A DNA stretch of 64,000 nucleotides from Mariniflexile sp. AS56. Its GTDB lineage: Bacteria; Bacteroidota; Bacteroidia; Flavobacteriales; Flavobacteriaceae. A program made the position numbers and the translations under genes. The notes under the pieces are model-generated. The model had not been told where the DNA came from and ran no database searches. It worked only from the letters and a program-made list of their open reading frames with translations. The stretch covers positions 248,001 to 312,000 of the forward strand of contig NZ_JAUPED010000004.1 of NCBI RefSeq assembly GCF_030552475.1, read 5' to 3'. Below, piece by piece: positions 16,595 through 25,480 of this stretch (position 1 is the stretch's first letter; the number at the start of each line of letters is the position of its first letter).

Positions 16595-17050
16595 TTAATC
16601 AATATCCTCAAGTCTCTTTACTGTGTTTAAAGCTGTTTTAACACTAACTAATTGACTATATACTAGATTGTTAATATCTGAATAGTTGCTAACCTTTGCC
16701 AGTTGTTTTTCATATTCATCTACACTTGCTTGCTCGCCTCGAATACATTCTTCTAAAATTGCTTCATCTGTATTAGAACTCAAGGTTGTTTTCACATCAA
16801 TCCAAGCTCTATGTGCCGTACCTAGAATGGTACCATCACTAACTGGAGTTGCATTTAGGCCGCGTATTAAGGCATCTAACTCATTTGCGAATTGACTTCT
16901 TTGTTGCGCTTTTGATTGCAACCAATTCTTTAAAAGAACATTATCAGATTTTTGCATAATTTGCTTATAACCTGCTTCAGCATCATAATTTTTCTGAAGT
17001 AATTCCTGTAAAACATCTACTGTTTCCTTATTTGCTTTTGAAATTTCCAT
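16595..17050 (-). CDS. PA2169 family four-helix-bundle protein
   Basis: 151 residues, ferritin-like four-helix bundle (DUF2383/PA2169). Markers are the opening NKETVDVLQELLQKNYDAEAGYKQ, the central SDGTILGTAHRAWIDVKTTL, and the helix EECIRGEQASVDEYEKQL. Members are soluble, often stress- or biofilm-associated, and have no proven reaction; Glu/His residues at the helix faces would allow metal binding, which I infer only from the fold. It sits inside the stress operon, 27 bp after the outer-membrane-like gene. Confidence 0.85.
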   Translation of the reverse strand: MEISKANKETVDVLQELLQKNYDAEAGYKQIMQKSDNVLLKNWLQSKAQQRSQFANELDALIRGLNATPVSDGTILGTAHRAWIDVKTTLSSNTDEAILEECIRGEQASVDEYEKQLAKVSNYSDINNLVYSQLVSVKTALNTVKRLEDID

Positions 17051-17077: not shown

Positions 17078-17563
17078 TTAAAACTGGTATCGAAGTCCCA
17101 AGGCAATATCAAAATCTAGATCATTATTATTGTAACGTTCATCACCAAAGGCCAACTCTGGTCTAAAGTCTAATGAAATAAGTAGTGGAATATCAAAATT
17201 ATATTCTATACCAATATCACCGGCTCCAAAAATAAAGGTGTCATTATAATCGTCTCCATTATTGAAGTTATATGATCCAACTCCACCACCAAGACCGGCG
17301 TACCAGTTAAAACCACCATCAATATTCCAAATCCATTGGTGTAATGCTGCTAGTTTAAAACCATCATAGTTTTTACCATCTCTCCAACCTAAATCTAACT
17401 CTAACCTATGGTCATTTCCTAAACGTGCTTGGTATGATATTTCAGTCCCAAAACCGTTACTATCACCTAATCTTAATCCTAAAGCATTTTTTGCTATTTC
17501 TTGGGCATTTAATGACACACTTGCCATTAACAATACGATTCCTGTAATTAAATATGTTTTCAT
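17078..17563 (-). CDS. small outer membrane beta-barrel protein
   Basis: 161 residues. A signal peptide covers residues 1-20 (ends VSLNAQ). The mature part alternates short amphipathic strands with Gly/Asp/Asn turns (LGLRLGDSNGFGTEISYQ, RLELDLGWRDG, WYAGLGGGVGSYNF, IGIEYNFDIP, LLISLDFRPELAF) and ends in an aromatic residue (ALGLRYQF), as outer membrane barrels do. About eight strands fit an OmpA/OmpX-sized barrel. The function is unknown; by context it belongs to the envelope stress operon. Confidence 0.75.
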   Translation of the reverse strand: MKTYLITGIVLLMASVSLNAQEIAKNALGLRLGDSNGFGTEISYQARLGNDHRLELDLGWRDGKNYDGFKLAALHQWIWNIDGGFNWYAGLGGGVGSYNFNNGDDYNDTFIFGAGDIGIEYNFDIPLLISLDFRPELAFGDERYNNNDLDFDIALGLRYQF

Positions 17564-17614: not shown

Positions 17615-18277
17615 TTATTTTTTAGCATCGGCGTTTTCATCCGATTTGGCTCCCATTCTGTTAACAGTATACATAGGTGCAAATTTCAATTTTAAACCTG
17701 CAATCTTTCTATTATCAGAACTTGACAACCCTTCTTTCTCCACGGTGTTTTTTCTAGTATCAATTGCTTCGTAAAGTAATTTAATCTCATCCCAATCTTC
17801 ACGAGAATACGTGTCTTTATTGTTTTGAACTGTATCTACAAAATTCTGATAAACACCTAAAATATTATCTTTATTAATCCATGTGAAGGTCATGTCTCCA
17901 CCAGTATAATGGCTACCTAATAATGATTGATGCATCATCTTTTTAGAAGACTCTACTTCCATTCTTTCATGCTCTGCAATCACTTCCGCTTTAAATTTCT
18001 CATACTTTACTGTAGCCTCATCTATATCCTTCTGCAACTCAGAATGATCTTTAACTGCTACTACCGCATTATCTGTTTCCAGTTTCATTTTGTGATAATT
18101 TCTATCAATAGCTTCCCAGTTTGCAGCTGCTTCATTTCTAGCCTCTCTACTTACAGAATCTACATAAAATTCATAATTATCAACACTCTTTTCTGCCATA
18201 CCTTTTTGGCTATCATTACAAGCAACAAACATGGTTGATGCCGCAACTAGTACTAATGTTATTTTTAAAGTTTTCAT
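17615..18277 (-). CDS. lipoprotein with long coiled-coil helices, unknown function
   Basis: 220 residues. Lipobox FVAC (Cys20) ends a normal signal peptide. Residues 30-120 are Glu/Lys/Ala-rich and heptad-like (NWEAIDRNYHKMKLETDNAV, KDIDEATVKYEKFKAEVIAEHERME), predicting a long helical hairpin in the periplasm. The C-terminal part contains LGVYQNFVDTVQNNKDTYSREDWDEIKLLYE. No family was assigned with confidence. Its operon partners (YtxH, PA2169, small barrel) suggest an envelope role. Confidence 0.7.
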   Translation of the reverse strand: MKTLKITLVLVAASTMFVACNDSQKGMAEKSVDNYEFYVDSVSREARNEAAANWEAIDRNYHKMKLETDNAVVAVKDHSELQKDIDEATVKYEKFKAEVIAEHERMEVESSKKMMHQSLLGSHYTGGDMTFTWINKDNILGVYQNFVDTVQNNKDTYSREDWDEIKLLYEAIDTRKNTVEKEGLSSSDNRKIAGLKLKFAPMYTVNRMGAKSDENADAKK

Positions 18278-18300: not shown

Positions 18301-18651
18301 TTACGCTTCACTATCTTTTTCTGTACCTACCTTCTTTGAAATAAAATTGGTTACGGCATACTGCAACGCATAGCCCAAAACCCGTTTCACTAAAGAACTT
18401 GATTTACCAACAATTATCTTTTTTGAAAAATAACCTCCAGAAATACTTAATATGGTTTCTAGTAGATTGGTTTTCACGTCTGGTGACTGTCTAAAATCTT
18501 TTACAGTTTGGTTAAATATATTTATCGGCCTAAAAGCTTCGGTAGTTTCATGAAACTGAAGTCTTAAATCTTCATACTCCATTCTTCTTCTTTTTTCAAG
18601 AAGTACCATGGCATCATTTAATAATTCTATTTGATTTTTAGGCTTCTTCAT
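18301..18651 (-). CDS. conserved small protein of the YtxH/holin-like cluster, unknown function
   Basis: 116 residues. The first 50 residues are charged and helical (ELLNDAMVLLEKRRRMEYEDLRLQFHETTEAF), followed by a moderately hydrophobic C-terminal half (ETILSISGGYFSKKIIVG, RVLGYALQYAVTNFIS) that could lie on or in the membrane. It overlaps the upstream holin-like gene by 14 bp, so translation is coupled. No family was recognised; the arrangement YtxH, holin-like, this gene is a plausible membrane-stress module. Confidence 0.65.
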   Translation of the reverse strand: MKKPKNQIELLNDAMVLLEKRRRMEYEDLRLQFHETTEAFRPINIFNQTVKDFRQSPDVKTNLLETILSISGGYFSKKIIVGKSSSLVKRVLGYALQYAVTNFISKKVGTEKDSEA

Positions 18652-19048
18652 GATGTGCTTTTTTAAATATGTCTGCTATATTAAAATCTGAATTTTTCGA
18701 TTTCAATAATTTGGATATTATTAAATTAGATACGGGCATTTTAATGAGTTTATCTTTTAACACATATAGCACTAAAGCCAATACTATATAAAACCCAGAC
18801 ACTATAAAAAACCCTAAATAATACGCGTTTAACAGGCTGCCAATTAAAAGACTTAACCCCACGTTAATAAACAGTGTAAACATCACAACGACAAGAACAA
18901 GTAGCACAATTGTTGTTAAAGACGACAATACATCAGCTGTTTTATCAACCGTATTGAGAGCCAATAACTCTGCACTTGTTTCGGTGTATTTTTTAGCCTT
19001 TTCATAAAGCAAGTCTACACTTTTTGTCATGTTTGTGCCGCTGTTCAT
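18638..19048 (-). CDS. phage-holin-like (Holin_X/PF07332-type) membrane protein
   Basis: 136 residues. Two transmembrane helices lie at about residues 42-70 (LTTIVLLVLVVVMFTLFINVGL) and 75-100 (LGFFIVSGFYIVLALVLYVL), after an amphipathic N-terminal helix. This is the arrangement of the 'phage holin family' proteins found chromosomally beside YtxH in many bacteria. No phage genes are near, so the name reflects the family and not a lysis function. The N-terminus has a second possible start at Met7. Confidence 0.7.
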   Translation of the reverse strand: MNSGTNMTKSVDLLYEKAKKYTETSAELLALNTVDKTADVLSSLTTIVLLVLVVVMFTLFINVGLSLLIGSLLNAYYLGFFIVSGFYIVLALVLYVLKDKLIKMPVSNLIISKLLKSKNSDFNIADIFKKAHHEEA

Positions 19049-19051
19049 TTT

Positions 19052-19312
19052 TTAAAGTTTTGAGTTCACTGTTTCTTTAACTTCTTTTTTTCCTTTTTCT
19101 AGAATTTCTTCCCCATTCTTAATAGCCGAATCGTATTTTTTTGATACGGTATCTAAAAAATTATCGAATTCTTCTTTTAAGCTTTCTTTAGCTTCAACCG
19201 ATTTATCTTTAATTTTTTTTCTTGTTTTTGATCCTTTATCTGGTGCAAAAAGCACTCCTAAAATGGCTCCTGTAGCAACACCTGCTAATACGCCTAATAT
19301 ATTTGATTTCAT
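19052..19312 (-). CDS. YtxH domain-containing protein
   Basis: 86 residues. The glycine-rich transmembrane segment NILGVLAGVATGAILGVLFAPDKGSKTRKKI is the YtxH signature (PF12732), followed by an amphipathic Lys/Glu helix (SVEAKESLKEEFDNFLDTVSKKYDSAIKNG). Members are general-stress proteins in Bacillus and are widespread in Bacteroidota; a biochemical role is unknown. It sits in the nine-gene stress operon between the lmo0937-type gene and the holin-like gene. A small hairpin CCACC-tacc-aaatGGTGG lies just upstream (19344-19359). Confidence 0.85.
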   Translation of the reverse strand: MKSNILGVLAGVATGAILGVLFAPDKGSKTRKKIKDKSVEAKESLKEEFDNFLDTVSKKYDSAIKNGEEILEKGKKEVKETVNSKL

Positions 19313-19554: not shown

Positions 19555-20151
19555 TTAATTGTTAATAATTCCTTTTAATTCTTGTTGTATTTGATCTAAA
19601 TTATAATTTAACTTGTTTAATATTTTTACCGTAACCACCTTAAAATCAATATCATTTGTTATGGATGACAAATATTTTAAATGCATTATTTCATTTTCTA
19701 ATAATTTCTCCATTCTAGCTAAATACATATTAGAAGAATCCTGTTTGTTTGCCACTGTTACCTTTTCAGAATTACGCTCTTCAAAACGACTAGGCCCTGG
19801 CAGAAGTATTAATTTTTTCTCAGCTAAACTGTGTAAATAGCCCCTTATTATCAATACGTCTTTTTCAAGTCTGTTAGCAATGACATACATACTATCAAAC
19901 TTGGTTGTTTCTACATACAACGCATTCAACTGCAATACACTATCATTCAATATGTCAATATCTGATAATACGGCTGCTTCTTCAATATTAGTTTTAATAC
20001 TTTCTTGAGATTTTATATTCTTCTCATTCAAATATGAGTTATTATCAGCTCTTTCCAAATCACAAGAAATAACACCTATGCTTACAGCTATAATTAGTAA
20101 GCTCGCTATGCATATTTTTATACTTCTATTAATTATCACCTTGTCTATCAT
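19555..20151 (-). CDS. lipoprotein, first gene of the stress operon
   Basis: 198 residues. A hydrophobic segment at about 13-28 ends in lipobox VISC (Cys30), so a lipoprotein is likely. Residues 60-190 are predicted helical (SDIDILNDSVLQLNALYVET, MYLARMEKLLENEIMHLKYL), with the C-terminus KLNYNLDQIQQELKGIINN, which suggests a periplasmic helical bundle. No named family was recognised. The gene is preceded by the composite motif at 20163-20221 and leads nine minus-strand genes with gaps mostly under 80 bp. Confidence 0.65.
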   Translation of the reverse strand: MIDKVIINRSIKICIASLLIIAVSIGVISCDLERADNNSYLNEKNIKSQESIKTNIEEAAVLSDIDILNDSVLQLNALYVETTKFDSMYVIANRLEKDVLIIRGYLHSLAEKKLILLPGPSRFEERNSEKVTVANKQDSSNMYLARMEKLLENEIMHLKYLSSITNDIDFKVVTVKILNKLNYNLDQIQQELKGIINN

Positions 20152-20162
20152 TTTCTATAATA

Positions 20163-20221
20163 CAAAGATGCAACCCCTTTACAGGTTTTGTGTTACAGCA
20201 TTTTTAATGATTGTTATAGAA
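20163..20221 (-). promoter_or_regulatory. composite stress promoter, copy 1 (TTCTATAA-N16-TGTAAC-N21-CATCTTTG)
   Basis: Minus strand: TTCTATAA at 20221-20214, TGTAAC at 20197-20192, then 21 nt, then CATCTTTG at 20170-20163, one base off the -7 consensus TAnnTTTG. The start codon is 12 bp downstream. The spacing is identical to the copies at 24941-24999 and 25422-25480. Confidence 0.7.
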
Positions 20222-20260
20222 TTTCAACACTCACTGAATTCTGGCTGAATTAATGCATAA

Positions 20261-20297
20261 AAAAAACCTTAAAACATACAGTTTTAAGGTTTTTAAA
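20261..20297 (-). terminator. terminator of the kinase/regulator operon
   Basis: Stem AAAAACCTTAAAAC/GTTTTAAGGTTTTT (about 20262-20295) with loop ATACA. Reading on the minus strand it follows the kinase stop at 20322 and ends in T-rich DNA. Confidence 0.8.
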
Positions 20298-20321
20298 AAT
20301 TGAATAGGATTTGTATTTTAT

Positions 20322-22106
20322 TTATACTGGAAGGTAAATTACAACAGTAGCACCAACTTGTAGCTCGCCTTCGGCAACAATAAAGCCTTGATGATTCTCT
20401 ACAATTTTTTTACAAATTGAAAGTCCAACTCCAGTTCCTGAGTAGTCTTGTTTATTATGAAGTCTATTAAATAATTCAAATATTTGCGAAGCATATTGCT
20501 GATCGAAACCAATACCGTTATCTGAAATGGTAATTTTATGATAATTTAATTGCTGACCTTTTACCAAAACGTCGTCTTCTATTGAATTAATTATCGAATA
20601 CGTTATTTTAATTATAGGACGCACATCTTTTTTACTATACTTCAACGAATTACTCAACAAATTTAAAAAGAGTTGACGCATCTGAAAAGGTATTACGAAC
20701 ACGGAAGGCAAGACGTCACTAAAAATGGTAGCTTCTTTATCTGTTATCGTTTCTGCCACATCTTGTTTAGCGTTTTCTAGCAACTCATTCAAATCAGTTA
20801 AAACGAATTCTTTATCCGGTTTGTTTGTTCTTGAAAACTGAAGTAAATCGTCTATTAACAAGCGCATTCTAGTAGCCGCCGCATTTATACGATCCAAATA
20901 TTGAATTCCAGAACTCGAAAATTTATCAGACTCTTTTTCTTCTAATCTCGATATAAACGTTTGAATTTTACGAAGAGGCTCTTGTAAGTCGTGACTGGCC
21001 ACATAATTAAATTCTGAAAGTTCCTCGTTATTTCTTTCAAGTTCTAAATTACGTTCTTCAAGCTCCAAATAATTTTCAATTTCATCTGAGATATCCGTAA
21101 TATTCCCAATAACCCGTCTTTCTCCCTCATCACTTACTAAAAGCTTACCATAGCCTTTAATATGCCTTATAGTGCCATCTTTTTGGATAATCCTGTAATA
21201 AGTAAAAGGTAAATGCTTCTCCTCCATCATTTTTTCGACATCGGCTGCAAGTTTATCTTTATCATCTGGATGTACAAAACTCATAAACGTTTCTAGAGTC
21301 GCTTGAAAGGCTCCTGGTTTTTCACCTAAAACCCGATATAAATTATCTGAAAACGTAAATGAATTTGTATCGACATGCCACACCCAATTACCATGTTTAC
21401 CTATATTTTCTAACTGAATAGTTGCTTCATGAAAAATGGACAATTGATTATTAAATAACTTGATGTTTTTAAAATCATTACTTATTCTATTGTATGATAT
21501 TATAATAAGCACCAATGTAAACAACAACAGCAAATACAAGAATAATGGTGTAAACTGTAAATTACTTTCATACTGTTTGTGATGCTTTTCAAGTTGTTGA
21601 TTTTCAAGCGAAATCATCTCATCGATTTTTTGCCTAATAGAATCCATTATTATTTTTTCTTCAAAAAAATTGGATTTAAATTCTTCTGTTAAAGTTTCTT
21701 TGTTTTCAACGAATGCATTAGTTTGAGTAAAGTTTTTAAAAAGATTATCAATGTATTTGCTTAATGTTTTTAAATTTTCGTTCTGATCTTCACTATGGCT
21801 TGCTATTTCTTTTAACTCTGCAAAAGATTCATTTACTTTTTCTCTAGCACTTAAATAAGGCTCTAAATGGGTTGTATCTCTTGTTAAAATATAATTTCTA
21901 TGACCATTTTCCGCATCTTTTAAATAAGATATAACCTGCTCTAACTCTACATTAACTTTATAGGTACTAACCACCAACTTAGTAGAGTTTGATAAATTAG
22001 AAATATGCTTATAGGTAAAGCCTCCTATAACAAGAATTAGAAAAACACTAACCAAGAAAACTATTCTTAAAAATAAGGCCGATTTTGAGAATACTTGCTT
22101 CGTCAT
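20322..22106 (-). CDS. CHASE3-PAS sensor histidine kinase
   Basis: 594 residues. TM1 lies at about 12-31, a periplasmic CHASE3-type helical sensor at about 35-180 (KDAENGHRNYILTRDTTHLEPYL is the family signature), TM2 at about 185-207, PAS at about 235-340 (GNWVWHVDTNSFTFSDNLYRVLG), HisKA with the phospho-accepting His in YVASHDLQEPLRK (about residue 372), and HATPase_c with N box LLSNSLKYS, G1 DNGIGFD and G2 GTGVGLSICK. It senses an unknown envelope signal. The start overlaps the stop of the response regulator by 1 bp (TAATG), so the pair is coupled; the regulator has no output domain, so signalling probably ends in a protein interaction or in the AraC-type gene upstream. Confidence 0.92.
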   Translation of the reverse strand: MTKQVFSKSALFLRIVFLVSVFLILVIGGFTYKHISNLSNSTKLVVSTYKVNVELEQVISYLKDAENGHRNYILTRDTTHLEPYLSAREKVNESFAELKEIASHSEDQNENLKTLSKYIDNLFKNFTQTNAFVENKETLTEEFKSNFFEEKIIMDSIRQKIDEMISLENQQLEKHHKQYESNLQFTPLFLYLLLLFTLVLIIISYNRISNDFKNIKLFNNQLSIFHEATIQLENIGKHGNWVWHVDTNSFTFSDNLYRVLGEKPGAFQATLETFMSFVHPDDKDKLAADVEKMMEEKHLPFTYYRIIQKDGTIRHIKGYGKLLVSDEGERRVIGNITDISDEIENYLELEERNLELERNNEELSEFNYVASHDLQEPLRKIQTFISRLEEKESDKFSSSGIQYLDRINAAATRMRLLIDDLLQFSRTNKPDKEFVLTDLNELLENAKQDVAETITDKEATIFSDVLPSVFVIPFQMRQLFLNLLSNSLKYSKKDVRPIIKITYSIINSIEDDVLVKGQQLNYHKITISDNGIGFDQQYASQIFELFNRLHNKQDYSGTGVGLSICKKIVENHQGFIVAEGELQVGATVVIYLPV

Positions 22107-22552
22107 TATAACCTCATTAAAAAATTATCTTTATTTAAACCATTGGTATGATACTGCCAGTTCATAGACACCACTTCCGATAGCACTTTCTTTAATTGCT
22201 TGAAACTACTTGGTTTTTTAATGTAAATATTGGCTCCTAACACAAAGGTTTCCTCTATATCTTCCTCTGATGCCGATGTGGAATAAATTGCAATGGCAAT
22301 ATCTGCCATTTTACTATTCGACTTTATTTCATTTAAACATTCTATACCATTTTTTTTAGGCATATTTAAATCTAAAAAAAGTACTTGTGGCAAGATTGCT
22401 TCTTCACATAATAAATAGTCCATAAGTTCTACCCCATCATTAAAGGTATTTACTTTAGTACTCATATTTAACTCATCAAAAGCATCTGTAAAAAACAGTC
22501 TATCATCTTCATCATCATCAGCTAAAATAATATGTATATAATCGTTTGGCAT
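22106..22552 (-). CDS. single-domain response regulator (Rcp1-like)
   Basis: 148 residues, a receiver domain only. Acidic pocket ADDDEDD (residues 11-17), phospho-acceptor Asp in VLFLDLNMPKKNG (about residue 61), switch Ser/Thr in IYSTSAS, and Lys in YIKKPSS. This is the stand-alone receiver type that partners CHASE3 or phytochrome kinases. Without a DNA-binding domain it cannot act on promoters itself. It is followed by the kinase with a 1-bp overlap and preceded 26 bp upstream by the AraC-type gene. Confidence 0.92.
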   Translation of the reverse strand: MPNDYIHIILADDDEDDRLFFTDAFDELNMSTKVNTFNDGVELMDYLLCEEAILPQVLFLDLNMPKKNGIECLNEIKSNSKMADIAIAIYSTSASEEDIEETFVLGANIYIKKPSSFKQLKKVLSEVVSMNWQYHTNGLNKDNFLMRL

Positions 22553-22578
22553 ATATTCTTTTATAAATACTGGTTAGT

Positions 22579-23136
22579 TTATTGTTGCGCCATATTTCTT
22601 CGCTTCGTAATAATACGTTGAAAAGCAGAAGGCGTTATGCCTGTGCTATTTTTAAATTGTGTGCTTAAATGAGCCACACTAGAATAGTTAAGTTTGAAAG
22701 CTATTTCGGTTAAGCTTAAATCTGTAGATAACAATAATTGTTTGGTATATTCTATTTTTTGAATAATAATGAAATTTTCAATAGACGTATAAGTTACTTC
22801 AGAAAATAAGTTGGAAAGATATCCGTAGCTATGACCTAATTTTTCTGATAAATATACCGAACTTTTAACGTTGATAGTAGAATCTTCATTAAAAACCATA
22901 TCAATAATGGCATCTTTAATTTTTTGAATCAATATACTTTTTTGATTTTCAACTATTTCGATACCATATTCGTCTAACGAACTGGTTAATAATTGATACG
23001 TTTCTGTGGGTACTTTTTCTAGTAACTCAACTTCTCCAAAAGCGAGAATTTTGTATTTTATATTGAGTTCACTAAGTCTTGTTTCCAAAACTTTTTTACA
23101 GATAGCATTAAAATCAAACTTTATAAATAATTTCAT
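22579..23136 (-). CDS. AraC-type transcriptional regulator
   Basis: 185 residues. The N-terminal 75 residues form a small alpha/beta domain (MKLFIKFDFNAICKKVLETRL...YGIEIVENQKSILIQKIK) that differs from the AraC sugar-binding cupin. The C-terminal part (about 80-180) holds the two helix-turn-helix motifs: GHSYGYLSNLFSEVTYTSIENF, then SLTEIAFKLNYSSVAHLSTQFKNSTGITPSAF, the standard second HTH. It is first in an operon with the receiver and CHASE3 kinase. Because AraC-type proteins bind direct repeats about 21 bp apart near -35, it is the best local candidate for binding the composite motif; this is inferred. Confidence 0.88.
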   Translation of the reverse strand: MKLFIKFDFNAICKKVLETRLSELNIKYKILAFGEVELLEKVPTETYQLLTSSLDEYGIEIVENQKSILIQKIKDAIIDMVFNEDSTINVKSSVYLSEKLGHSYGYLSNLFSEVTYTSIENFIIIQKIEYTKQLLLSTDLSLTEIAFKLNYSSVAHLSTQFKNSTGITPSAFQRIITKRRNMAQQ

Positions 23137-23220
23137 ATAGCTTTTAAAATTACTGTAAAGTTAAGAAAGATTTTTTTTTAACCTTAATTTATTATGCTAT
23201 ACTTATAGTTTAAAAGTTAT

Positions 23221-24333
23221 TTATTTAGACTTTCTAATGGCTTTCCATATTTTTAAGCGCACCCGAGCTTTACTTTGTAAATGTTTATCTACAGGTTCTC
23301 CTATTAGAAATCCATAAGCTTCACAACCTGGTGTGTTATCAAATAGTATTTTTAAAGTTGCTGTAATTGGTAAGGCTAAAACCATTCCTGTTATACCCCA
23401 TAACATTGAAAACAAAACCAATGATGATATGGCTACAAAAGCATTTACGCTTACTTTGGATCCTGTAATTTTAGGGGTTATAAAATTCCCTTCTAAAAAC
23501 TGTATAAATCCAAAAATGGCAATCACACCAAAGGCATACCATGCAGAATCTTTGGTTGCTAAAGCAAGAATAGCAGGTAATAACGAGCCTATTATAACCC
23601 CAATATAAGGGATTAGTAATAAAAGTGCTGCTAAAAACCCAAAGAAGAATGGGTTACCAATACCTAAAAGTAATAAGCCCAAACTATTTAAACAGCCCAC
23701 AATAAGTATCACCTTAATTAAACCTAATAAATAATTTTGCTGGATAGCGTATATTTTTTTCAAAACACTATTTATAAACGATTTTGATTTTGATTTAAAT
23801 ACTTTATAAACAAATGTTCTAAAAAATGCTCGGTAATAGAGAAAGAAAAAAATATAAATCGGTATTAAAACCAAATCGCTTAGAAGACTACTTGATTCGG
23901 TTAAAACAATCCCAATCTTGTCTAAATTATCTTTAATAATATTTTCAGCTTTGAATTCACCTTTTGAAAAAAGCCGATTGTTTCCTATATTGAAGGTTTG
24001 CTCTAAACCGTTAACCGATTTATGAAATAATTCACCTAATTTTTGAGAATACACTTCACTATTATCCATAAAGTACATTAACCTACTACTTATTAAGAAA
24101 AAAAGTAATGCCGTTAAAACAAATAAGGTTATTAAAGATGTAAGTGTTGCAAACAACCTACTACAATGCCATTTTTTCTCAACCAAACGTTGTATAGGGA
24201 ATATCATAACGCTTAGTATGATGGCGAAAATTATAGGTACTATAAAAGGTTTTAATACATACAAAATAAAAACCACAGCAATAAGCGACACTAAACTTAG
24301 GGCGCTGTGATTGATGTGGTTTTTAGAATTCAT
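23221..24333 (-). CDS. AI-2E family transporter (TqsA/YdiK-type permease)
   Basis: 370 residues with about eight membrane segments: a pair near 12-50, one near 55-75, one near 148-170, and a C-terminal block rich in Gly/Leu (LLLLGIGNPFFFGFLAALLLLIPYIGVIIGSLLPAILAL). The motif PYIGVIIGSLLPA and the ending GITGMVLALPITATLKILF are diagnostic of the AI-2E permease family. Members are homotrimeric; various ones export AI-2 or act as Na+/H+ antiporters, so the substrate here is open. It lies between the AraC-type operon and the CsbD operon, on the same strand, and follows the CsbD terminator. Confidence 0.88.
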   Translation of the reverse strand: MNSKNHINHSALSLVSLIAVVFILYVLKPFIVPIIFAIILSVMIFPIQRLVEKKWHCSRLFATLTSLITLFVLTALLFFLISSRLMYFMDNSEVYSQKLGELFHKSVNGLEQTFNIGNNRLFSKGEFKAENIIKDNLDKIGIVLTESSSLLSDLVLIPIYIFFFLYYRAFFRTFVYKVFKSKSKSFINSVLKKIYAIQQNYLLGLIKVILIVGCLNSLGLLLLGIGNPFFFGFLAALLLLIPYIGVIIGSLLPAILALATKDSAWYAFGVIAIFGFIQFLEGNFITPKITGSKVSVNAFVAISSLVLFSMLWGITGMVLALPITATLKILFDNTPGCEAYGFLIGEPVDKHLQSKARVRLKIWKAIRKSK

Positions 24334-24349
24334 ATAATTAAGTTTAAAT

Positions 24350-24432
24350 AAAAAAAAAACTGTCTAGGTGTTACAAATCTCGATTTTTACTAACCAACCA
24401 AACAACCTGAGCGTGCAACAATTCTAGACAGT
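24350..24432 (-). terminator. long-loop hairpin terminator (or small RNA) after the CsbD gene
   Basis: On the minus strand ACTGTCTAG (24432-24424) pairs with CTAGACAGT (24367-24359) and is followed at once by T10 (24359-24350). The 56-nt loop is unusually large for a simple terminator; weak extra pairing continues inward. It starts 17 bp after the CsbD stop. Confidence 0.65.
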
Positions 24433-24448
24433 ATTGACTATTTACTTG

Positions 24449-24634
24449 CTATAAATTAGAAATGATTTTGTGTACTTGTTCTTTCGTTTTTCCGAGTTTT
24501 TCTTGTAGCCTAACTACTAACTCGCCTTGTTTTCCTTCAGCTAAAAGCAAATCATCCTCTGTTAACTCAGCATAATTTTGTTTTAACTTATCTTTTATTT
24601 CGATCCAGTTGACTTTAATTTCCGTAGCGTTCAT
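24449..24634 (-). CDS. CsbD family stress protein
   Basis: 61 residues. The CsbD signature is clear: NWIEIKDKLKQNYAELTEDDLLLAEGKQGELVVRLQEKLGKTKEQV. CsbD proteins are small, helical, soluble and induced by general stress (sigma-B in Bacillus); no enzymatic role is known. It is the second gene after the two-helix membrane protein (54 bp gap) under the composite motif at 24941-24999, and is followed by a strong terminator. Confidence 0.92.
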   Translation of the reverse strand: MNATEIKVNWIEIKDKLKQNYAELTEDDLLLAEGKQGELVVRLQEKLGKTKEQVHKIISNL

Positions 24635-24688
24635 AATTATTATTTTTTATATTAATAATTTCTCTCTTTCATTTGCAAAGTCATTGTT

Positions 24689-24895
24689 CTAGGCTTTTTT
24701 AGCACCTACAAAGCTAAAAAGAAGCGCTACAAGCCCTAAACCTATTGTTATATAGGCATTGGTGTTATCTTGCGCTTCAATAAGATCTAAATCCCCTATA
24801 CTTATCTGTGTTTCTGGCATAATCATGGTATAAATACCATACCCCAATAACACGACTCCTACTATCATTAAAATTGATTTTACACTCTTGTTCAT
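24689..24895 (-). CDS. small two-helix membrane protein, first gene of the CsbD operon
   Basis: 68 residues from the ATG at 24895. A longer frame opens at 24943, but that start would lie inside the -7 element at 24941-24948 and its extra residues (CQRVKRSYNLLNNEA) are not signal-like, so the shorter form is right. Helix 1 is KSILMIVGVVLLGYGIYTMI and helix 2 is ITIGLGLVALLFSFVGA, with a short acidic loop between. The pattern is DUF3185-like but I cannot place it firmly. Confidence 0.7.
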   Translation of the reverse strand: MNKSVKSILMIVGVVLLGYGIYTMIMPETQISIGDLDLIEAQDNTNAYITIGLGLVALLFSFVGAKKA

Positions 24896-24940
24896 GGCTT
24901 CGTTATTTAATAAGTTATAAGAGCGCTTTACTCTTTGACA

Positions 24941-24999
24941 CAAAGGTAGGCTAGCAGTAAAGATGTATGGTTACACAATTTTTATAGATTATTATAGAA
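24941..24999 (-). promoter_or_regulatory. composite stress promoter, copy 2 (TTCTATAA-N16-TGTAAC-N21-TACCTTTG)
   Basis: Minus strand: TTCTATAA at 24999-24992, TGTAAC at 24975-24970, TACCTTTG (exact -7 consensus) at 24948-24941. It drives the two-gene operon 24895-24449. Both spacings equal those of copy 1. Confidence 0.75.
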
Positions 25000-25026
25000 T
25001 TTTAAGAAACTGATTATTTTGGAATA

Positions 25027-25052
25027 AAAAAGCCACCTATTTAAAGTGGCTT
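25027..25052 (-). terminator. terminator of the 25324-25061 gene
   Basis: Minus strand stem AAGCCAC/GTGGCTT (25052-25046 and 25036-25030) with a 9-nt loop and a T-run after it, 9 bp past the stop at 25061. Confidence 0.8.
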
Positions 25053-25060
25053 GAATTTAT

Positions 25061-25324
25061 TTATTTGATGTAGATTAAGAACGCTATTACTACGGACAAG
25101 AAAACACTAACAGCAACTAGTTGCCGAATTCTATTTTGTCGATTCTTAATTTGAATACGCTTTTTTATATTTTCTAATTGAACTGCAGTCGCTTTAGGGA
25201 ATTCTTTTAATTCGATATTTGAATAACTCCCTTCTAAAGCACTGTTATCTTTTCGTTTTGTTAAAAGACTTCGGTTATTTTTTAACGAATTCATTGCCGC
25301 CATCATAGCACCTTCTCCACCCAT
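25061..25324 (-). CDS. small C-tail-anchored membrane protein, unknown function
   Basis: 87 residues. A soluble, basic N-terminal part is followed by a helix rich in Lys/Arg/Gln (AVQLENIKKRIQIKNRQNRIRQL) and one C-terminal transmembrane segment (VAVSVFLSVVIAFLIYIK), giving a tail-anchored layout. The start could be Met1, Met7 or Met8. No family was recognised. It is a single-gene unit under the third copy of the composite motif and is flanked by a terminator, which links it to the stress genes. Confidence 0.6.
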   Translation of the reverse strand: MGGEGAMMAAMNSLKNNRSLLTKRKDNSALEGSYSNIELKEFPKATAVQLENIKKRIQIKNRQNRIRQLVAVSVFLSVVIAFLIYIK

Positions 25325-25421
25325 AATTTCTAAGTTTTAAAATGAAACATAATTGATTTATCAAACAACAAAAGATACTATTAATCTCAGGTATTCTCAA
25401 TCAAACTAAAAAAAGCTGCTT

Positions 25422-25480
25422 TATATATAAGTAGCTAATTTTATAAAAATGTTACAAAATGGTGGTGTGAACTTATAGAA
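25422..25480 (-). promoter_or_regulatory. composite stress promoter, copy 3 (TTCTATAA-N16-TGTAAC-N21-TATATATA)
   Basis: Minus strand: TTCTATAA at 25480-25473, TGTAAC at 25456-25451, and 21 nt later TATATATA at 25429-25422, a weaker -7 element. The leader to the start at 25324 would be about 90 nt, longer than in the other two copies. Confidence 0.6.

Follow-up and report, generated by a model that had tools for sequence, protein, structure and literature searches.

Two direct-repeat promoter elements tied to a small AraC-type regulator in Mariniflexile: a strong candidate for a general stress response in Bacteroidota

Introduction

At araI1-I2, the AraC protein of Escherichia coli serves as the arabinose activator, and AraC-type activation is in itself already known. 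To our knowledge, the Bacteroidota lack RpoS, sigma-B and EcfG. The 64-kb stretch of Mariniflexile sp. AS56 analysed here (the window, from a genome of 4.65 Mb) carries three copies of a repeated promoter motif on either side of a gene for a small AraC-type regulator (22579-23136), next to which a receiver and a CHASE3 sensor kinase are encoded. Two of these repeats, sites A and B, are members of a conserved set of switches that goes with small AraC-type regulators of this family throughout the Bacteroidota and lies ahead of stress-protection genes; they are strong candidates for serving a general stress response. What would be new is AraC-type activation that takes two-component input and serves a candidate regulon for general stress in Bacteroidota.

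Our best reading is that a metal-sensor-like AraC activator was rewired to two-component input and would drive this candidate regulon. We consider it probable, at roughly three chances in four, that A and B are operators of the 22579-23136 activator, with kinase and receiver input and a regulon of envelope and stress-protection genes.

The repeated motif and its refinement

A sequence-only reading of the stretch had described three minus-strand copies of TTCTATAA-N16-TGTAAC, each followed after 21 nucleotides (nt) by a -7-like element (CATCTTTG, TACCTTTG and TATATATA), and no further copy. A pattern search of the whole window recovers these three mismatch-free copies on the minus strand only, with the same downstream sequences and distance, and finds no fourth exact copy. 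When up to two mismatches are allowed, six matches stand against a mean of 1.57 and a largest value of 5 in 100 shuffles. Base composition predicts 0.003 exact copies in 64 kb (P for at least three, ~5e-9), a figure obtained for a motif of 14 base pairs (bp) picked after inspection of the window, so that relatives provide the fair test. The whole genome holds four exact copies, three of them inside the window, and all six Mariniflexile genomes carry the exact motif (17 copies versus 3 for the reversed-pattern control). With at most one mismatch, the genome of AS56 yields 18 copies versus 15 for the reversed control; the 14 letters alone are therefore a poor probe, and refinement was needed.

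The consensus first proposed proved incomplete, as the AAT before each half-site and the TTTG at N25 are also required. The full element is a 21-bp direct repeat, AATnnTrTAA-N11-AATnnTrTAAC, behind which, at a distance of exactly 25 nt, stands the TTTG of a sigma-A -7 box. Site A (20223) and site B (25001) fit it with 0 mismatches each. The refined element gives 11 matches in the genome, namely A, B and nine others, versus none for the control, and it is conserved in relatives; neither the random genomic scatter nor the lack of conservation against which the motif was to be checked was found.

Around homologues of the regulator gene, 60 loci were fetched. The motif (at most two mismatches) lies after the kinase gene and before the next operon in 20 of the 24 loci where a kinase adjoins the regulator, and is absent from that position in the other four (L053, L057, L058 and L060); several loci show a second motif upstream of a CsbD operon. 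A consensus of 36 sites consists of a 14-bp half-site (~AATTnTrTAACnnAAA), its direct repeat after 21 bp and then cATCTTTGTA, with 25 nt from TGTAAC to TTTG; these sites were selected by at most two mismatches plus TTT at N25 and include a few chance-like members, which makes the consensus partly circular.

The geometry was further measured in 78 named loci (80 fetched, two Mariniflexile dropped) by counting half-site pairs at spacings of 15-27 and offsets of 18-32. For the strand of the regulator, the grid gives 142 matches at (21,25), spread over 73 of the 78 loci, 14 at (21,24) and at most one in every other cell; on the opposite strand, (21,25) holds two. The genera by record title include Kordia, Flavobacterium, Polaribacter, Tenacibaculum, Lacinutrix, Olleya, Gelidibacter, Gilvibacter, Winogradskyella and Chryseobacterium, the last being over-represented. 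When seven sites of the AS56 genome were used to train a weight matrix, its best scores in 18 example loci ranged from 11 to 55, the weakest from Planobacterium and Chryseobacterium, versus -4 to 10 on the opposite strand or shuffled sequence.

According to an excerpt of a study on Flavobacterium psychrophilum (PMC9723704), the sigma-A -7 consensus TAnnTTTG lies at -12 to -5. With the -7 box so placed, the TrTAAC cores fall at ~-60 to -55 and ~-39 to -34, and this predicted geometry would fit the direct half-sites, about two helical turns apart near -35, of the AraC/XylS family. Grid and consensus thus uphold the earlier proposal of direct half-sites 21 bp apart with the proximal one over the -35/-33 region. 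At G102:C4:382759 and 383941, two sites 1.2 kb apart are identical over the 43 nt from proximal half-site to TTTG; this pair is a duplicated promoter.

The grouping of all three promoters into one regulon holds for the first two copies. The third, at 25480, has four mismatches to the full pattern and lacks TTTG, and its upstream half is absent in all three relatives compared (L080, L083 and L043). For these reasons we judge it a look-alike over a different promoter, outside the regulon. The same relatives keep, before the same gene of 87 amino acids (aa), another, promoter-like block resembling TTTGTAACATTTT...TACTTATAwATAAAGCAGCTTTTT (window 25463-25400, minus strand), which possibly serves another sigma factor or regulator. 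A recent gain of the third copy in this species is conceivable.

Co-occurrence with the regulator

Within the family, 149 genomes from 148 genera were scanned with AATTnTATAA-N11-AAT-nn-TGTAAC-N25-TTTG (at most three mismatches). Sorted by best regulator match, the ratios of motif to control are 83:10 in the 11 genomes at E<=1e-69, then 37:10 (12 genomes), 47:14 (37), 9:11 (18) and 45:38 (71). The co-occurrence check called for by the sequence-only reading was extended to 198 Bacteroidota genomes with the general pattern (at most one mismatch, reversed-pattern control, regulator family at E<=1e-20). It gives 244 matches versus 8 in the 96 genomes with the regulator family and 3 versus 12 in the 102 without; outside the own family, the ratio is 57:2 in 79 genomes with and 2:12 in 100 without. 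Co-occurrence, position and geometry strongly support the proposed link between the element and the small AraC-type regulator with its receiver and CHASE3 kinase.

A second AraC-type regulator, of 338-342 aa, repeatedly lies behind a site (L189, L198, L207, L209, L231, L232, L235, L238, L242 and L301), which suggests a regulatory cascade.

Genes behind the sites

Eight of the nine other sites in the AS56 genome sit 25-61 nt, counted from TTTG, before an ATG. They precede outer-membrane barrels of 200 and 216 aa (the latter showing a TDE1717-type match), a protein of 172 aa, one of the DUF1328 family, a membrane protein of 63 aa, an M48 peptidase, a lipocalin-like lipoprotein with a YiaD-type OmpA lipoprotein next in line, and an open reading frame (ORF) of 46 aa after which a 338-aa AraC regulator is encoded. 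The remaining site, C25:9576, falls inside a gene and looks like chance. Sites recur at matching genes in other Mariniflexile (DUF1328 or a 183-aa gene, the 172-aa protein, the lipocalin-like lipoprotein, the 46-aa ORF and the barrels), and several of these classes are also found in another genus (G126). In further genera and families, the genes behind the sites encode Dps (L245, L347), CsbD, YtxH, DUF2383 (L246, L432), lmo0937-family (L262, L339) and triple-BON (L341) proteins.

Starting from gene families and looking for a same-strand upstream site within the fetched 1.5 kb, we found one at 16 of 24 YtxH loci (one below the Pfam cut-off; 14 genomes), five of them far from the regulator, and at none of 14 recA loci. 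Second YtxH operons far from the regulator (L359, L360, L363, L366 and L369) show a variant second half-site, TATnnTrTAAT.

The targets thus include YtxH, CsbD, DUF2383, Dps, BON, lmo0937-like and DUF1328 proteins, which we take to be stress families, with CsbD genes away from the regulator left uncovered. Sites A and B precede stress-type genes, as had been claimed, and refined sites precede such genes in relatives too. The candidate regulon is larger than three promoters, and its putative stress role is read from these gene families.

The regulator, its subtypes and its locus

The 185-aa regulator ends in a double helix-turn-helix domain (HTH_18 / HTH_AraC), as in the AraC/XylS family. Its family splits by an N-terminal motif into CxxC, NxxC (the window's type) and SxxC proteins. 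All 87 NxxC proteins adjoin a receiver gene, versus none of 27 of the CxxC type; other CxxC members adjoin heavy-metal ATPases. Paralogues carry the MxCxxC-like motif KNMVCxRC in the ferredoxin-like N-terminal domain, where the window protein has N10xxC13. The 31 SxxC proteins (e.g. L062-L065 and L324-L328) have no adjoining receiver gene. Outside Flavobacteriaceae, the direct repeat precedes heavy-metal P-type ATPases, an HMA protein and a 52-aa cysteine-rich protein (L415, L420, L421, L422, L423 and L425); most of these sites are near CxxC-type small AraC regulators and likely represent a metal regulon of Bacteroidota.

After site B, the 69-aa, CsbD, AI-2E transporter, AraC, receiver and kinase genes follow on one strand with gaps of at most ~115 bp, and a terminator-like hairpin stands directly before the site (Table 1); site B may therefore drive the regulator gene itself. 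An AT-rich hairpin with a T run closes the kinase gene, before site A. In the 18 Chryseobacterium loci listed, 226-230 nt separate a site from the ATG of the regulator downstream, and in L244, L249 and L271 this distance is ~140 nt, which suggests autoregulation.

Table 1. Features of the window around sites A and B (positions in the 64-kb stretch)
Feature	Position	Strand	Basis or remark
DUF2383 / PA2169-family protein	16595..17050	-	
161-aa protein, outer-membrane-barrel-like by eye	17078..17563	-	no Pfam match
DUF6565-like lipoprotein	17615..18277	-	below cut-off
116-aa conserved protein of site A operon	18301..18651	-	
Holin-X-like membrane protein	18638..19048	-	below Pfam cut-off
YtxH-family protein	19052..19312	-	
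Lipoprotein, first gene of site A operon	19555..20151	-	lipobox VISC in sequence
-7 box of site A, CATCTTTG; predicted transcription start ~20158	20163..20170	-	TAnnTTTG consensus (PMC9723704, excerpt)
Site A, 21-bp direct-repeat candidate operator AATTCTATAAC..AATGCTGTAAC	20192..20223	-	pattern + footprint in 9 aligned genomes (sites chosen by pattern)
Site A half-sites, 14 bp each	20223-20210 and 20202-20189	-	
CHASE3-PAS-HisKA-HATPase sensor kinase	20322..22106	-	domain matches
Stand-alone receiver, response regulator without output domain	22106..22552	-	Response_reg 1.2e-17
Small AraC-type regulator, 185 aa; ferredoxin-like N-terminal domain with N10xxC13; AraC-type DNA-binding domain 64-185	22579..23136	-	
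AI-2E-family transporter, between CsbD and regulator	23221..24333	-	
CsbD-like protein	24449..24634	-	38.6 bits, cut-off 40
69-aa membrane protein, first gene after site B	24689..24898	-	
-7 box of site B, TACCTTTG; predicted transcription start ~24936	24941..24948	-	
Site B, 21-bp direct-repeat candidate operator AATTCTATAAT..AATTGTGTAAC	24970..25001	-	pattern + footprint in 9 aligned genomes (sites chosen by pattern)
Site B half-sites, 14 bp each	25001-24988 and 24980-24967	-	
Intrinsic-terminator-like hairpin directly before site B	25030..25052	-	
87-aa tail-anchored-type protein behind look-alike; judged outside regulon	25061..25324	-	
Third copy, judged look-alike	25451..25480	-	no TTTG; upstream half not conserved; different conserved block overlapping and after

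Proposed mechanism and alternative explanations

In the mechanism that we propose, one regulator subunit would occupy each 14-bp half-site of the direct repeat, two helical turns apart on one face of the DNA. The subunit on the proximal half-site would touch RNA polymerase; the promoter itself would be an ordinary sigma-A one with TAnnTTTG, arranged as class II in the manner of AraC at I1-I2. The signal would enter through the CHASE3 kinase and the stand-alone receiver encoded next to the regulator, and the phosphorylated receiver would probably act on the ferredoxin-like N-terminal domain, at the position of the metal-type CxxC of the paralogues. Genes for the envelope and for protection against stress would be the output, and through site B the regulator would activate its own gene.

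Several observations weigh against this reading. The grid criteria give no site in five of the 78 loci, of which two are short contigs. Among 133 sites in named loci (at most one mismatch), only 62 have an ATG 15-65 nt after TTTG, with 24 at 66-200, 22 beyond 200 and 3 nearer; for another 22, no ORF of at least 45 aa starts within 400 nt. Sites accompany 8 of 18 CsbD loci, all adjoining the regulator, and none of nine away from it. Many Chryseobacterium loci show neither a kinase of the window's type nor a stress operon in the fetched stretch. Nine genomes of one genus (g128) supply 162 of the 187 own-family matches, and the co-occurrence and locus counts carry no correction for shared ancestry. 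Outside Flavobacteriaceae many sites belong to metal-type paralogues, and the phylum-wide count is therefore that of the family rather than of this orthologue alone. The second AraC-type regulator found behind some sites could also bind them.

That last point opens an alternative in which the sites are real and the working activator here is another AraC-type protein, either the 338-aa regulator with its own site or a small paralogue, 22579-23136 being merely nearby. AraC genes of 337-342 aa do lie behind sites in Mariniflexile, G126, Kordia, Tenacibaculum, Polaribacter and Winogradskyella, and G000 has five homologous matches to the small regulator. The ties of the small regulator to the sites, both local (73 of 78 loci) and by genome, the site upstream of its own ATG in Chryseobacterium and the 21-bp peak of repeat spacing beside small paralogues too nevertheless make this alternative improbable. 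We are less dismissive, while still doubtful, of an envelope or metal homeostasis regulon that carries the stress-like genes as passengers: outer-membrane barrels, lipoproteins and OmpA-like proteins make up many of the targets, and sites of the family outside Flavobacteriaceae precede heavy-metal P-ATPases and HMA proteins, but Dps, BON/OsmY-like, CsbD, YtxH, DUF2383 and lmo0937-like genes recur across genera and families, and the window's regulator subtype is without the CxxC pair.

That the proximal TGTAAC stands at a fixed distance from the -7 region could also be expected of an alternative sigma factor promoter with no activator site. As sigma-driven stress promoters the sites were rejected, for they carry a TAnnTTTG-like box, the sigma-A consensus of F. 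psychrophilum in the excerpt cited (PMC9723704), and a direct repeat that extends the signal to ~-62 and that a sigma factor leaves unexplained; we give this alternative very little credit. Chance similarity in AT-rich DNA, combined with shared ancestry of one locus, draws on the near-control level of the 14-bp motif with one mismatch in the AS56 genome; the 17 exact copies versus 3 in the genus were considered under the same heading. The refined element, with reversed-pattern controls, wrong spacings and the opposite strand near zero, already contradicts it, and sites recur before non-homologous genes, so that its probability is close to nil.

The preferred reading, in which A and B are operators of the small regulator, would provide the study of general stress responses in Bacteroidota with a concrete regulator, a precise candidate operator and a list of candidate targets. 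It would also provide promoter annotation across the phylum with an operator rule (two AATnnTrTAA half-sites 21 bp apart and 25 nt from TGTAAC to TTTG), and evolutionary studies with a natural experiment in which a metal-sensor-like regulator would have exchanged its CxxC input for a receiver protein while retaining its DNA site. More tentatively, at somewhat less than even odds, Bacteroidota would do without a stress sigma factor in their general stress response: an AraC activator of the metal-sensor type would have lost its cysteine pair, passed under the control of a stand-alone receiver and a kinase, retained its ancestral operator with the 21-bp direct repeat and taken over Dps, OsmY-like, CsbD, YtxH and outer-membrane genes at housekeeping promoters.

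Comparison with known systems

With E. coli AraC at araI1-I2, the regulator shares the double helix-turn-helix domain, and its candidate sites share direct half-sites 21 bp apart, the proximal one next to -35 of a housekeeping-sigma promoter. Unlike AraC, it has no sugar-binding domain; the protein is small, its N-terminal domain is ferredoxin-like, the kinase and receiver are encoded separately, and its candidate targets are many. MarA, SoxS and Rob of enterobacteria, whose folds were compared here, are likewise small AraC-type proteins with broad stress regulons at housekeeping promoters, but they act as monomers on a single degenerate site, whereas a rigid tandem site and an adjoining two-component pair are found here.

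Two-component control and an AraC-type DNA-binding domain are common to the AraT/YesN-type response regulators (6swi and 3lsg, fold comparison); there they are joined in one protein, whereas here the receiver and the DNA-binding protein are encoded by separate genes. The HMA-type metal-binding domains (PF00403) resemble the paralogues in their MxCxxC-like motif and putative ferredoxin-like fold, but Pfam HMA gave no match at E up to 1 to five N-terminal fragments and three CxxC paralogues, and the window protein carries the NxxC variant. The sigma-B, RpoS and EcfG responses have target families in common with the candidate regulon, including CsbD, YtxH, Dps, OsmY/BON and lmo0937; unlike them, the system described here would employ a candidate activator at sigma-A promoters, with no alternative sigma factor involved.

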